From the NCBI GenBank assembly GCA_023142595.1, contig JAGLJF010000015.1:1-33999 (forward strand): 33,999 bases of DNA, in the 5' to 3' direction. Below are positions 799 to 29,443 of the stretch, in pieces (the first letter of the stretch is position 1; the number at the start of each line of letters is the position of its first letter). The notes under the pieces were generated by a model. That model was not told the DNA's origin. It made no database searches and saw nothing but the letters and a program-made list of their open reading frames with translations. The DNA comes from Minisyncoccota bacterium. GTDB lineage: Bacteria > Patescibacteriota > Minisyncoccia > JAHIHE01 > JAGLIN01. The position numbers and the translations under genes were made by a program.

Positions 799-964
799 GC
801 CTTTTGAAAACTTAACAAAGTACTTTTAAAATTTGTATTTAATTTTCGTAAGTTTTATTAATAACCGTATTTCTATCTTATATTAAGGAATGACTTATGT
901 CAAATATTGGGTTCATTTTAGCATACTAACATTTCAGCAAAAACTGTAGCGAAAGAGTTAATTT

Positions 965-1864
965 TTAGTCAGAATATTTTAAATCTTTAATTTCTTTATT
1001 TCCTAATTCCTTATATAAAATGTCCATTAATACGCCTATAACCTTAAGAAAAGCATCATAATTTTCTTTTGCATTAAAAACCATATGAATTTTTTCTTTT
1101 TTACTTTTAGAAATAAAAGTATTGAAATGTTCAATAGTAGAAATTGTTGGATGCGTTTCAGTTGAAATACCCGTATACACATTTTTTATAAAATCAGTAG
1201 TAATAACGGAAGGAAATATACCAATTTTTTTTATTTTCTCTATTAATGTTTGAAATCTTTCATTGCCTTTTATTACATTACCATAATTCACCTTGCTGTA
1301 TCTGTAATATTTAAATCCAAAATTACTTTTAAAATCTTTTTCTTTTCTGCTTGAAAGTAAATTTAAGTTATTAGTAGAAAAAAAATTCTCAATATCGTCT
1401 GGAACAAGTTGTGAAATTTTAGAATATTTTTTTAAAAAATCAATATAATTTTTCCTACCATTTTTCACAGCATTTATACAATTAATATTTGAAGGATCGA
1501 AAGCAAGAATATCTTTATTCATAGAGTGAATATTTATTTTTTCACTAACCGCAAGAGAAAAACAAAGATTATTTTTTTCTTGATCGCTGGCTTTTGATAC
1601 AATTTCCAAACTCGTAAGAAAAAGTTCTAATAAAAACCTAACACCATTAAACTTGGTATTATAAAAAAATCTATATAATTCTAATCCATCTGAATCTTCC
1701 AAAGAATCATTTTGGTCGGATATAGAGAGAATGTATATTGAGAAGAATATATTAAGTTGCTCTTTGAGAATATCATTAAATAATATATTATCTAAATTTA
1801 AACAAAAAGTATCACGCTCATTCTCCAAACTCTTACCAATCAATGATGGTTTTATTTTCTCCAT
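965..1864 (-). CDS. Hypothetical protein (299 aa)
   Basis: Long uninterrupted ORF; no family recognised with confidence. Confidence 0.7.
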   Translation of the reverse strand: MEKIKPSLIGKSLENERDTFCLNLDNILFNDILKEQLNIFFSIYILSISDQNDSLEDSDGLELYRFFYNTKFNGVRFLLELFLTSLEIVSKASDQEKNNLCFSLAVSEKINIHSMNKDILAFDPSNINCINAVKNGRKNYIDFLKKYSKISQLVPDDIENFFSTNNLNLLSSRKEKDFKSNFGFKYYRYSKVNYGNVIKGNERFQTLIEKIKKIGIFPSVITTDFIKNVYTGISTETHPTISTIEHFNTFISKSKKEKIHMVFNAKENYDAFLKVIGVLMDILYKELGNKEIKDLKYSD

Positions 1865-6677: not shown

Positions 6678-7145
6678 TTATTTATTCAAATAATCACATT
6701 GTCCATCACCATCTGCATCAACGTATCTCCCACCAGAATTTTGACCTCTTTGTGAATTATCTTTCATTCTATTATAATTTCCTTGTCCTCCTTTTTTCAC
6801 ATTGCCATTTCTGCCTTGTCCTTGACCAAGTCCAAGTTCAGCACGAATTGCATTCACACCTTCAATGTCACCTGCCAATCGCAATTCCCTCATTTCAACA
6901 AATTTAGCAAAATTTTCTTCATTACTAACTACTTCCATCATACGACCATTTTTCATATCGCCTCGAGCTTCTTTCCAAGCATTGAAATCTTTATTTTCAA
7001 ATGCTTCAGTCATTGCTTCATGTCTTTCGGAAGTGTAATTTGGACCTTCAACATTTGGATCTCCTTGATAAGCATAAGCCGAGCTAAGCCCCAAACTCGC
7101 AACACCAAGCATCAAAAGAGAAAGAGTTAAAATTTTTGTATTCAT
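6678..7145 (-). CDS. Small secreted protein with signal peptide and DADGDGQCD motif
   Basis: MNTKILTLSLLMLGVASLGLSSAYAYQ signal sequence; C-term RYVDADGDGQCDYLNK. Confidence 0.85.
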   Translation of the reverse strand: MNTKILTLSLLMLGVASLGLSSAYAYQGDPNVEGPNYTSERHEAMTEAFENKDFNAWKEARGDMKNGRMMEVVSNEENFAKFVEMRELRLAGDIEGVNAIRAELGLGQGQGRNGNVKKGGQGNYNRMKDNSQRGQNSGGRYVDADGDGQCDYLNK

Positions 7146-7199
7146 AGTTTTAATTTAATGATTATTTTTTAGATATTTTAATTGATTAAATTTCAATTG

Positions 7200-7265
7200 T
7201 TGTCGACTTTTCTGCCTAACGAACTTTTCCATTAAAGAGGATAATGGATGTCGCCTGACCTCTTC
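7200..7265 (-). ncRNA. Structured 5' leader candidate upstream of the secreted-protein gene
   Basis: Minus strand AGAAGAGGTCAGGCGACATCCATTATCCTCTTTAATGGAAAAGTTCGTTAGGC..; CCATTA..TAATGG hairpin at 7229-7247; begins just after a promoter-like motif. Confidence 0.35.
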
Positions 7266-7271
7266 TATAAT

Positions 7272-7302
7272 TATTACAATCCAAAAGCAAATTTTATTTC
7301 AA
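7272..7302 (-). promoter_or_regulatory. Candidate ECF-sigma promoter, copy B
   Basis: Minus strand TTGAAATAAAAT-N11-TTGTAATA. Confidence 0.6.
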
Positions 7303-7316
7303 TCTTTATAAACAAT

Positions 7317-7394
7317 GTTAGGACCAAGAGCAAGGGTCGAATCTAAGCATATTGTCCTCTTGATTGGTCCTTTGCTTGTTCGACCCTTTCTAAC
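7317..7394 (-). ncRNA. Candidate pseudoknotted structured RNA (about 78 nt)
   Basis: Stem AAGGGTCGAA (7388-7379) / TTCGACCCTT (7341-7332); loop GGACCaatCAAGAG (7370-7357) complementary to downstream CTCTTGGTCC (7330-7321); outer GTTAG/CTAAC. Confidence 0.5.
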
Positions 7395-24366: not shown

Positions 24367-25428
24367 ATGAAAAACAAACTAGACAAAATCAAAGAAGAAT
24401 ACGACCAAATTACAAAAGAACTCAGTGATAGCGAGGCTGTTTTTGATGCAAAGAAATTCAAAAATCTCAGCAAAAAGCAAAGTAAGTTAAAAGAAATTGT
24501 TGATAAATACGAAGAATATTTGAAAATAGAAAAAGAGATTGAAGAAAATAAACAAATTATCAAAAAAGAACAGGACAAAGAATTAATTGCTCTTGCAGCT
24601 GAAGAAAACGAATCCTTAGAAAAAAAGATTATAGAAATAAAAGAAGAAATCAAATTTTTAACAATTCCTAAAGACCCAAAAGACGAAAAAGATGTCATTG
24701 TTGAAATCAGAGCTGGGGCTGGAGGAGATGAAGCTGGACTATTTGCCAGTGAACTTTTTCGGATGTATGCAAAATTTGTGGAAAAACAAAGTGATTGGAA
24801 AACGGTGATTTTGAGTTCGAACAGAAGTTCGGTTGGTGGATTCAAGGAAATTATTTTTGAAATTAACGGACAAGATGTCTATTCAAAGATGAAATTTGAA
24901 AGTGGAGTCCATCGCGTACAAAGAATTCCTGAAACCGAAAAACAAGGCAGGGTTCACACTTCAACTGTTACCGTTGTCGTACTGCCTCAAGCAGAAGAAA
25001 CAGATTTAGTAATCAAAAACGAAGATATAAAAGTTGATGTATTTCGATCATCTGGTCCAGGAGGACAAAGCGTTAACACTACCGACTCTGCCATCAGAAT
25101 TACTCATGCTCCAAGTGGATTAGTTGTTTCTTGCCAGGATGAAAAATCACAACTCAAAAACAAAACAAAAGCGATGCAAATCTTGCGTTCTAGACTTGTG
25201 GCTCTCGAAGAAGAAAAAAGAGAAAAAGAAGAATCTGGCGCGCGAAAAAGTCAAATTGGAACGGGAGATCGAAGCGAAAAAATCCGAACCTATAACTTTC
25301 CACAAGACCGAATTACTGATCACAGAATCAAAAAAAGTTGGCATGAAATTGATAGCATTCTTGAAGGAAATGTTGAAAACATCATCGAATCTCTTTCTCA
25401 AGCAGAACAAGAATTGAAAGAAGAATAA
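24367..25428 (+). CDS. prfA: Peptide chain release factor 1
   Basis: [30 protein letters not shown] (PxT-type RF1 motif). Confidence 0.96.
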
Positions 25429-25593: not shown

Positions 25594-25995
25594 ATGGGAC
25601 AAGAAGGAGAAATAAGAGAAATAATTATAAACTTAAAAGATGCACGAAATGAAATATTTCATGTTTTCGTTATTGGAGAGAAATTACATCTTCAAGCTTC
25701 CAAACAATCTTTGTCTGGAGATGAGATTACTTTCTTGAAAAAAATTAGTTTCGCTACGAAAAATGTAGAAGATACGATGAACTGGTTTAACGATATATGC
25801 AAAGGACTTACAATCGAACTTAATAAACTAAAAATAATTGTAAAAAGAGCTGATACGGTTTTTGTCATAGTAGCAGTGAAAGAAATCATTCCATTTAATG
25901 CTCTGGGCATTCTTACAGATGAAGATCCAAAAGGCACAATTGGACACATTGATGATGCTGTCGAAGAAATCAAGGCAGTCTTATCAAAACAATAA
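25594..25995 (+). CDS. Hypothetical protein (133 aa)
   Basis: Strong Shine-Dalgarno AGGAGGTG at 25581-25588, own promoter and terminator; family not recognised. Confidence 0.85.
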   Translation: MGQEGEIREIIINLKDARNEIFHVFVIGEKLHLQASKQSLSGDEITFLKKISFATKNVEDTMNWFNDICKGLTIELNKLKIIVKRADTVFVIVAVKEIIPFNALGILTDEDPKGTIGHIDDAVEEIKAVLSKQ

Positions 25996-26083: not shown

Positions 26084-26135
26084 TTTTCAGCTAAATAACC
26101 ACATATTTTAGCTATTTTCAAGCTATTTTCAGCTA
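26084..26135 (+). repeat. Four TTTTCAGCTA-like motifs upstream of a promoter
   Basis: GCTA cores at 26090, 26111, 26122 and 26132 (steps 21, 11, 10). Confidence 0.6.
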
Positions 26136-26164
26136 TTGACAGAATTTTAAAAGTATGATAGATT
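26136..26164 (+). promoter_or_regulatory. Promoter of candidate ncRNA
   Basis: TTGACA (26136-26141)-17-TAGATT (26159-26164). Confidence 0.7.
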
Positions 26165-26170
26165 GTCATG

Positions 26171-26378
26171 TTGGCCTGAGACTAATCCGTTGCGAAAGAA
26201 AAAAGAACGGATAGGAAAAATCATTACAATAAAAAAACTCAGGTCAGAAGAAGAAGAGAAGGATGTGACATTATAAATGTCACAAAATAAATCCCGTCAC
26301 CACCAACCCTTCTCTCTTCTTTCCTCTTAAAAACCCATTTTTAAATACAATCAAGATAAGGCGAAAGCCTGTTTTTTT
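26171..26378 (+). ncRNA. Candidate structured non-coding RNA (about 208 nt)
   Basis: Stems GGCCTGAG/CTCAGGTC, ATCCGTT/AACGGAT, GAAGAAGAGAAGG/CCTTCTCTCTTCTT (bulged), GTGACATT-ata-AATGTCAC; ends in AGGC-GAAA-GCCT-GTTTTTTT. Confidence 0.6.
26359..26378 (+). terminator. Intrinsic terminator of candidate ncRNA
   Basis: AGGC-gaaa-GCCT followed by GTTTTTTT. Confidence 0.7.
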
Positions 26379-26629: not shown

Positions 26630-29443
26630 CTATTTCCCAAACAACTCTTTCAAAGCAATTCCCGTAAATGACTTTTTGTGTTTTGCCACTTCTTCTGGAG
26701 TTCCCGTGACAACAACTCTTCCGCCGTCTTCCCCTCCTTCAGGACCAAGGTCAATAATATAATCAGCAGATTTAATAACATCGAGATTATGTTCAATTAT
26801 TATCACTGTATTTCCAGAATCAACAAGACGATTCAATATGTCTAATAATTTTTTTACATCATCAAAATGCAACCCTGTTGTCGGTTCATCGAGAAGATAT
26901 AAAGTCCTGCCAGTTGCTTTTCTGGAAAGTTCTGATGCCAACTTAATTCTCTGTGCCTCCCCTCCCGAAAGTGTTGTGGCAGCTTGTCCAAGATGGATAT
27001 AACCCAAACCCACTTCTTTCAAAATTTTCAAAACATCATAAACCTGAGGAATATCTTTCCAAAAATCTTCCGCTTCGTCCACTGTCATATCCAAAACTTG
27101 TGCAATATTTTTTCCTTTATATTTTATTTTCAAACTTTCTTGATTATATCTTTTTCCCTTACAAACTTCACAAGGAAGATATACATCTGGAAGAAACTGC
27201 ATTTCAACTTTGATAAAGCCCTCACCTTTACAAACTTCGCATCTTCCACCTGCAACATTAAAACTAAACCTGCCAAGCTGATATCCTCGCGCTTTTGCCT
27301 CCTTTGTCAAAGTGAAAATTTCTCGAATTGGCGTAAAAAGACCTGTATAGGTTGCTGGATTGCTTCGCGGAGTTCTGCCAATTGGAGATTGATCAATTTG
27401 AATTATCTTATCAATATTTTCGATTCCATCAATTTTCTGATGCGCTCCTGGTTTTTGCATTGAGTGATGAAGTTTTCTCGCCAACGATTTATAAAGTATT
27501 TCATTTACCAAGCTTGACTTTCCGCTTCCAGAAACTCCTGTCACGCAAACAAAAGATCGAAGCGGAAAACTTACATCAACATTTTTCAAATTATTTTCCG
27601 TCGCTTTATAAACTGTCAAAAAATTCTTGCCAATTTTTCTTTTGTTTTTTGGAACTTCAATTTTCTTTTTACCAGAAAGATATTGACCCGTAATTGAATC
27701 TTTACATTTCATAATTCCGCTATAACTTCCTGCGAAAACAATTTTACCACCATGAGCCCCAGCTCCTGGTCCAATATCAACCAAATAATCTGCCTCTCTC
27801 ATTGTTTCTTCATCGTGCTCAATGACAATCAAAGTGTTTCCAATTTTTCTCAAATGCTTCAATGTATCCAGAAGCTTTCTATTATCCCTTGCGTGAAGAC
27901 CAATTGAAGGTTCGTCAAGAACATAAAGAACCCCAACAAGAGCGCTACCAATTTGAGATGCCAAACGAATTCTTTGAGCTTCCCCTCCTGCAAGCGTCAT
28001 TCCTGTTCGATCAAGCGTTAGGTAATTCAACCCAACATCCACCAAAAAACCCAGACGATTTTTGATTTCAATAACAATTTTTCCCACGGTCAATTCTTCT
28101 CTTCTTGAAAGTTTCAAATTATGAAAATATTCATAGGATTGATTAATTGACATAGCAGATATTTCACCAATATTTTTTCCATGAACTTTGACCGACAAAG
28201 CCTCCTTTTTTAGCCTTGAACCAAAACAAGTTTTGCAAGAACTAACGCTCATATACTTTTCTATTTCCTTTCGAACAGAAGAAGAATCGGTTTTAAAATA
28301 TCTTCTTTCCAAATCATTTACAAGACCATTAAATTTCAAATGAAAAACGTTACTTCCTTTTTTTGTATAATAACGAACTTCCAATTGCTCCTCTTCTTTT
28401 CCGCCATACAAAATTATATCCAGCTTTTCTTTTGAAATATCTTTCAGCCTGACATTTAAAGGAATACGGAATTGTTGCGCAACAGAATCCAAAAGCGAAC
28501 CATAATAATTATTTGGCTTATAACTCCAAGGCAAAACACCCCCTTCACTGATTGTTTTATTGAAATCTGGAATAACAAGTTTTGCATCGATTTCCATCTT
28601 GTTGCCGAGTCCATTGCAATTAGGACACGCACCATATGGACTATTAAACGAAAACAGACGAGGCTCGATATCAACAAAAGCAAGACCACAATCAAAACAA
28701 GAAAGATTTTTATTCATTATCAATTCTTCTTTTCTGAAAATAATTGAAATCAAACCATCAGACAAATTCACTGCCTGCTCAACATCTTCAAAAATTCGAC
28801 TCAAATTATTTTCATTAACTTCAATTTCATCAATGAAAATATCAATATTATGTATCTTATATCGCGCCAAATCAATTTTTTCATCGAGATTAATTATCTT
28901 TCCATCAATTTTTGCTTTATGGTATCCTTTTTTATATATGTCATTTAAGAGTTGAAGATATTCCCCTTTCTTTCCGCGAATCATTGGAGAAAATATTTTT
29001 ATTTTTTTCCCTTCAAATTTATCTAAAATATTATCAACCATTTGCTCTATGGTCATCGCCGAAATAGGCTTGTTACATTTTACACAATAAGGAACTCCAA
29101 TCTTCGCAAAAAATAAACGCATGTAATCATAAATTTCCGTGATTGTCCCAACCGTTGAACGAGGATTATGCGAGGCTGCTTTTTGAGAAATCGAAATTGT
29201 TGGAGAAAGTCCTTCAATGTGATCTACATTAGGTTTCTCCATTTGTCCCAAAAATTGACGAGCATAGCTTGAAAGACTTTCCAGATATCTTCTTTGTCCT
29301 TCGGCAAAAATTGTATCAAAAGCCAGCGTGGATTTTCCCGATCCCGATATACCCGTAAAAACAATAAATTTGTCCCTCGGCAACTCCAAATCAATATTTT
29401 TCAGATTATGTTCCCGAGCACCTTTGATAGTTATTTTATTCAT
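26630..29443 (-). CDS. uvrA: Excinuclease ABC subunit A
   Basis: [73 protein letters not shown]. Confidence 0.98.

Follow-up and report, generated by a model that had tools for sequence, protein, structure and literature searches.

A predicted family-restricted gene for a structured non-coding RNA downstream of prfA in a Patescibacteria genome

The locus and the predicted gene

The window analysed here is the whole stretch of 33,999 nucleotides (contig JAGLJF010000015.1), which is contig 7 of a 1.04-Mb genome that is 98% complete. This genome, a member of the Parcubacteria/Paceibacterota, is labelled G000 throughout. The following features lie at the locus.

24367..25428, plus strand: prfA, encoding peptide chain release factor 1 and conserved as the neighbour upstream; NCBIfam NF001859/TIGR00019 above cut-off
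25594-25995, plus strand: 133-aa ORF separating prfA from the RNA; matches no family of Pfam or NCBIfam
26136..26164, plus strand: promoter, TTGACA, 17-nt spacer and TGA-TAGATT (extended -10), from the sequence and a promoter scan
26170..26378, plus strand: predicted transcript of ~205-209 nt, delimited by the promoter and the U-tract
26359..26378, plus strand: intrinsic terminator, AGGC-GAAA-GCCT-G-TTTTTTT, read from the sequence
26630..29443, minus strand: uvrA, convergent and downstream in the window and in some relatives; NCBIfam NF001503/TIGR00630

Taken by itself, the segment at 26136-26378 on the plus strand is very probably an independent gene whose product is a structured non-coding RNA. 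The -35 element at 26136-26141 is a perfect TTGACA, the -10 element TAGATT is located at 26159-26164 and is classed as extended because TGA directly precedes it, and the promoter scan scored 10 of 12 matches. An earlier note on this DNA had reported the TTGACA-17-TAGATT promoter at this place, leaving the TGA unmentioned, and had read AGGC-GAAA-GCCT as a terminator, which the sequence bears out, with its end at 26378. Transcription is predicted to start about 7 nt past the -10 element, at ~26170, so that the 5' end of the RNA would sit directly at helix H1 described below. The terminator stem comprises four pairs (AGGC/GCCT), which is below the size limit of the terminator scanner, and is followed by G and T7. 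The terminator stems of relatives are longer and of different sequence, in the same position (for example, CAGCATTTATGCTGATTTTTTT in genome G003). Just upstream of the -35 element, AGCTATTTTC repeats were observed at 26092-26135, and AGCTATTGACA of this repeat region is kept in G003, G001, G011, and G012.

A reading similar to the 133-aa ORF was found in the congener G001 (L046) and is absent between prfA and the RNA in G002, G003, and G011. The placement of the RNA in the uvrA 3' intergenic region, as first described, holds for the window and some relatives; 'downstream of prfA' is the better description because G004 and G008 keep the prfA-RNA arrangement with no adjoining uvrA.

Fold, covariation, and coding potential

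The earlier note had proposed folding with RNAfold, covariation from relatives, and an Rfam/Infernal scan as checks. Using RNAfold and dinucleotide shuffles, the minimum free energy (MFE) was -54.5 kcal/mol versus -33.1 kcal/mol (sd 4.2) for the shuffles (z = -5.05), and 0 of 200 shuffles were as stable; with the terminator removed, z was -5.3. The single MFE structure contains all helices that had been listed by eye and consists of two successive closed domains in tandem, all on the plus strand:

26171..26247: domain 1, helix H1 (26171-26180/26238-26247) around hairpin H1b; same fold in G003
26182-26184 and 26186-26191 / 26206-26214: hairpin H1b, with the A-rich loop GCGAAAGAAAAAAG
26247..26322: domain 2, long helix H2 (26247-26262/26308-26322) around hairpin H2b and a C-rich stretch
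26264-26272 / 26276-26284: hairpin H2b, GTGACATT-ata-AATGTCAC
26285-26307: C-rich single-stranded stretch of 23 nt inside H2
26285..26357: 3' segment poor in G and rich in C/U/A, made up of the C-rich loop, the pyrimidine strand of the helix, and a single-stranded tail; the proposed pairing surface

The core of H1, GGCCTGAG/CTCAGGTC, is located at 26173-26180/26238-26245 with ATCCGTT/AACGGAT inside, and the first helix is thus as originally drawn. The 5' strand of H2 is purine-rich and its 3' strand is pyrimidine-rich, and this helix, its inner hairpin, and the C-rich stretch likewise appear in the MFE structure as they had been described.

A DNA search of 57 related genomes returned one clear homologue, in the congener G003 (L002, minus strand), which has the same prfA-RNA-uvrA order and folds independently to the same shape as the window RNA. 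The two sequences share 33 identical nt across the promoter; since the uvrA genes of these genomes agree at 80% of their four-fold degenerate sites, 33 identical bases would be expected by chance at ~6e-4 (0.8^33). The primary identity of the transcribed part is hardly above this four-fold rate, so that it is the promoter and the base pairing, and not raw identity, that show selection.

Within 35 explicitly aligned pairs of H1, H1b, the H2 core, and H2b, ten substitutions separate G000 and G003, giving four double compensatory changes, two single compatible changes, and no broken pair. H1 accounts for one of the doubles and one of the singles, H1b for two doubles and the other single, and H2b for the remaining double. 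When ten transitions were placed at random, at least four doubles occurred in 2.4e-4 of trials and zero broken pairs in 6e-3. The count concerns two sequences, the only pair alignable base by base, and was made on an explicit, post hoc alignment by hand because MAFFT placed the 3' strands of both H1 and H2 wrongly. Such covariation is good, though shallow, evidence for the predicted structure.

The same comparison bears on whether the transcript is instead the mRNA of a small protein, a 17-residue peptide starting from the AUG at 26276, which we consider highly improbable. The window sequence has the open frame AUG UCA CAA ... UAA, but its start is AUA in G003, where the pairing partner has co-changed and the H2b hairpin is kept, and G011 has no corresponding ORF. 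Because the start is lost by a compensatory change that preserves H2b, the ORF is judged not to be coding, in agreement with the original description of the segment as non-coding. A 5' mini-ORF of the form NTG-TTG-NNN-TGA was rejected since its stop is lost in G008 and G012.

Relatives, range, and comparison with RNA families

Distant relatives were found by walking with the promoter pattern and with prfA. Related genes are present in other genera of the family, mostly straight after prfA, with lengths of ~130-355 nt and differing internal helices.

G011 (L049): after prfA, ~170 nt
G002 (L047/L063): after prfA, two tandem RNAs of ~130 and ~320 nt
G008 (L050): after prfA, ~255 nt
G004 (L052): after prfA, ~310 nt
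G001 and G009: after prfA, partial or cut by contig ends
G012 (L042): elsewhere, not after prfA, ~355 nt
G007 (L166): partial gene

These genes have in common the grammar of their promoters, a last helix that is long, a 3' segment almost devoid of G, and a terminator with a U-tract. TTGACA-N14-TGN-TANNNT was present in all nine compared promoters and TGTTG at the predicted start in seven of the nine sequences; the promoter-plus-start pattern gave no control (reversed-pattern) match in 15 genomes. Over the 55 nt that precede the terminator, the nine sequences are rich in pyrimidines, with a G content of 0-16% versus 17-26% in the remainder. A strong 5' helix domain is found in most relatives and is missing in the shorter G002 tandem RNA (G002b) and in the G006 copy. 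Without the terminator, seven of the nine sequences gave a fold z between -4.6 and -7.3, the exceptions being G004 (-1.8) and G006 (0.1); the G006 copy is likely a decayed, structureless remnant. An A-rich stretch (AAAGAAAAAAG / GAAGAAAAAAG / AAAGGAAAAAG) recurs in G000, G003, G004, and G008 and is shorter in G011. A helix at the H2 position with a G-poor 3' side is also found in G003, G011, and G002b. The C-rich single-stranded segment, AAAUCCCGUCACCACCAACCC in G000, is C-rich also in G003 and G011 and is absent in G002b, which lacks domain 1 and has the loop AAACAAA in its place. A covariance model built from the window RNA alone matched G003 at E 1e-19 and G011 weakly, at the orthologous place, at E 0.0023; the other relatives were unmatched. 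For the distant members, homology is argued from synteny, promoter, and architecture and not from alignable sequence. At L047 of G002 (835-1394, minus strand), the interval from prfA to uvrA holds the two tandem RNA genes, both of which have a promoter and a terminator of their own. In the shorter one, CCUCC follows a hairpin GUGGGAGGUG/CACCUCCCAC, in which Shine-Dalgarno-like and anti-Shine-Dalgarno-like strands are paired together.

These data also address the proposal that the locus yields a poorly constrained spacer RNA, arising from promoter noise or a decaying gene and having little or no function. Divergence of the primary sequence at about the four-fold-site rate, the highly variable size among relatives, and the structureless G006 remnant would fit such an origin. 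It is nevertheless unlikely in view of the compensatory changes in four pairs, the independent strong folds of most relatives, the 33 identical promoter nucleotides, and the retention of the gene beside prfA across genera.

Beyond the family, the same covariance model was run against 241 genomes of the class, and nothing convincing was found except the window's own copy. Three weak matches were judged to be false positives because all lie within same-strand ORFs (117-389 aa), which are RuvC-, RnpA-, and FtsA-like by eye alone. Weak matches may escape the strict filters of this search, which did not recover G011, so that absence outside the family means an absence of close homologues. Phage records gave no match to the window RNA, and its own genome contains no paralogue with the same promoter and a similar RNA.

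No Rfam 15 family matched region 26136-26378 at the gathering threshold; up to E = 10, implausible matches were returned, mostly to eukaryotic microRNA families, and a scan of the relatives' RNAs likewise gave no credible match. The novelty suggested by the earlier note therefore stands, as does its remark that no motifs of tmRNA, RNase P, SRP, or 6S RNA were recognised: the tmRNA of the genome lies at G000:C19, and its one RNase P match lies at G000:C31 (E = 9e-19, below the gathering score). The 6S (RF00013) and small SRP (RF00169) models had no match anywhere in the genome. In the family as a whole, RF00169 matched 0 of 15 genomes at E <= 0.1, whereas 12 of 14 control genomes were matched; the SRP RNA of the family has either diverged strongly or belongs to a different type.

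This leaves the group's SRP RNA unaccounted for and would give an opening to the view that the window RNA is a divergent housekeeping RNA (SRP 4.5S RNA, 6S, tmRNA, or RNase P). The chance of this is very small, given that tmRNA and RNase P are located elsewhere, that the window RNA evolves far too fast for SRP or 6S, and that it has no Rfam match to these families at E = 10. With no Rfam match, covariation present, and a promoter conserved across several genera, the 'probable novel structured ncRNA' of the earlier note is supported as a clade-restricted (family), fast-evolving novel sRNA gene; its kind, the bacterial sRNA, is already known, and the transcript is predicted.

Several further RNA loci were observed. 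At L074 (G000:C4, ~7100-7330, plus strand), a second, unannotated RNA with the same type of promoter is much more strongly conserved; it forms an irregular hairpin of ~190 nt with closing stem GTAATTTGTAGGCAG.../...CTGTCTGCAAATTAT and a conserved GGTCTATTCCTCGGAAAT, and occurs in eight family genomes including G000 (orthologues L185, L187, L188, L189, L197, L198, and L199). Six orthologues (L185, L187, L188, L197, L198, and L199) had no Rfam match up to E = 1, and this RNA is possibly the 6S RNA of the group. Leader-like transcripts at L037 (G007:C22), L175 (G004:C27), and L206 (G003:C4) combine short ORFs with purine stretches of the GAGGAGAGAGTT type and CUCUCUUU stretches that match them; in two of the three cases the promoter is of the same type as that of the window RNA, and these transcripts are possibly attenuators. 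Similar ~300-nt leaders with the shared promoter precede ORFs at L033 (G008:C27), L200 (G009:C58), and L084 (G000:C15), with CACTATCCTGTTTATGAGCGG / AACAGGATAGTG-like arms in the first two and a related arrangement in L084.

Possible function and comparison with known systems

The leading reading, a tentative one, is that the window RNA may be a trans-acting regulatory sRNA that pairs through its nearly G-free C/U-rich segment. According to this proposal, a strong sigma-70-type promoter would start the RNA at ~26170 and the intrinsic terminator would end it at ~26378; domain 1 would lock the 5' end in a helix, while domain 2 would present the C/U-rich segment as loop, helix strand, and tail. 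This segment could then pair with stretches of mRNA rich in G, ribosome-binding sites for example, and thereby alter the translation or decay of its targets. The helices would stabilize the RNA and present its pairing segment, and this would account for the retention of architecture and promoter despite sequence turnover. Trans action, the target class, and the effect are all inferred, and the model is drawn from sRNAs in which C-rich/UCCC segments bind Shine-Dalgarno regions (LhrC, RsaE, RNAIII, SprD, and FsrA; PMC4132741, PMC9217828).

In a crude genome-wide duplex scan of the C-rich loop against 754 start regions, taken from predicted gene starts, the tenth best energy was -17.1 kcal/mol, and shuffled queries gave -16.1 to -17.2 kcal/mol; with the tail and the A-rich loop as queries there was likewise no excess over shuffled queries. 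The backing for the pairing mechanism thus comes down to resemblance. The pyrimidine strand is largely locked in H2 and the G002b loop is AAACAAA and not C-rich, both of which count against pairing.

The main alternative is that the RNA binds or sequesters a protein (RNA polymerase, as does 6S, or an RNA chaperone or RNase III), with RNA pairing secondary; the contacts would be domain 1, including the A-rich loop of its hairpin, and the long duplex of domain 2. The recurrence of the A-rich loop, the constancy of architecture while sequence changes, and the strength of the promoter are in its favor, although A-runs are common in DNA so AT-rich, G002b is without domain 1, and a different RNA, at G000:C4, is more 6S-like. 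There being no 6S match, and two tandem domains in place of a single rod with a central bubble, protein binding is regarded as doubtful. It is rather improbable that the prfA-linked RNAs of the family make up a class of RNA with a new mechanism, such as a scaffold RNA that works with a protein partner and is confined to Patescibacteria with reduced genomes. The traits at issue would be a length of ~130-355 nt, a promoter that stays constant, a 5' helix domain in most members, a 3' segment almost without G, and an interior that changes freely.

No paper on regulatory RNAs, ncRNAs, or 6S RNA of Patescibacteria was found in a search that covered part of the literature, and an sRNA gene with its own promoter and a conserved structure, carried by one of the group's genomes of ~1 Mb, would offer a concrete entry point. 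RNA turnover is fast: within one family, architecture and promoter persist and sequence and length do not, so that catalogues based on covariance models, such as Rfam, will miss RNAs of this sort. The conserved promoter TTGACA-N14-TGNTANNNT-N4-TGTTG can be used for finding more RNA genes in these genomes.

Among characterized RNAs, tmRNA, RNase P, and small SRP RNA (RF00023, RF00010, and RF00169) resemble the window RNA in being non-coding structured bacterial RNAs. However, tmRNA is recognized by a tRNA-like domain and a covariance-model match, neither of which is seen in the window RNA, and small SRP RNA by the domain-IV GGAA/AGCA signature, which it lacks. The likeness to 6S RNA (RF00013) lies in a length of ~200 nt, a strong promoter of its own, and a high degree of structure; 6S RNA is one irregular rod with a closing stem and a central bubble, whereas the window RNA comprises two tandem domains. 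The C-rich sRNAs of low-GC bacteria, namely LhrC of Listeria, RsaE, RNAIII, and SprD of Staphylococcus, and FsrA of Bacillus, differ in architecture and have no sequence homology or Rfam match to the window RNA, but share with it a stand-alone gene, hairpins, a G-poor, C-rich, single-stranded segment, and an intrinsic terminator (PMC4132741, PMC9217828).
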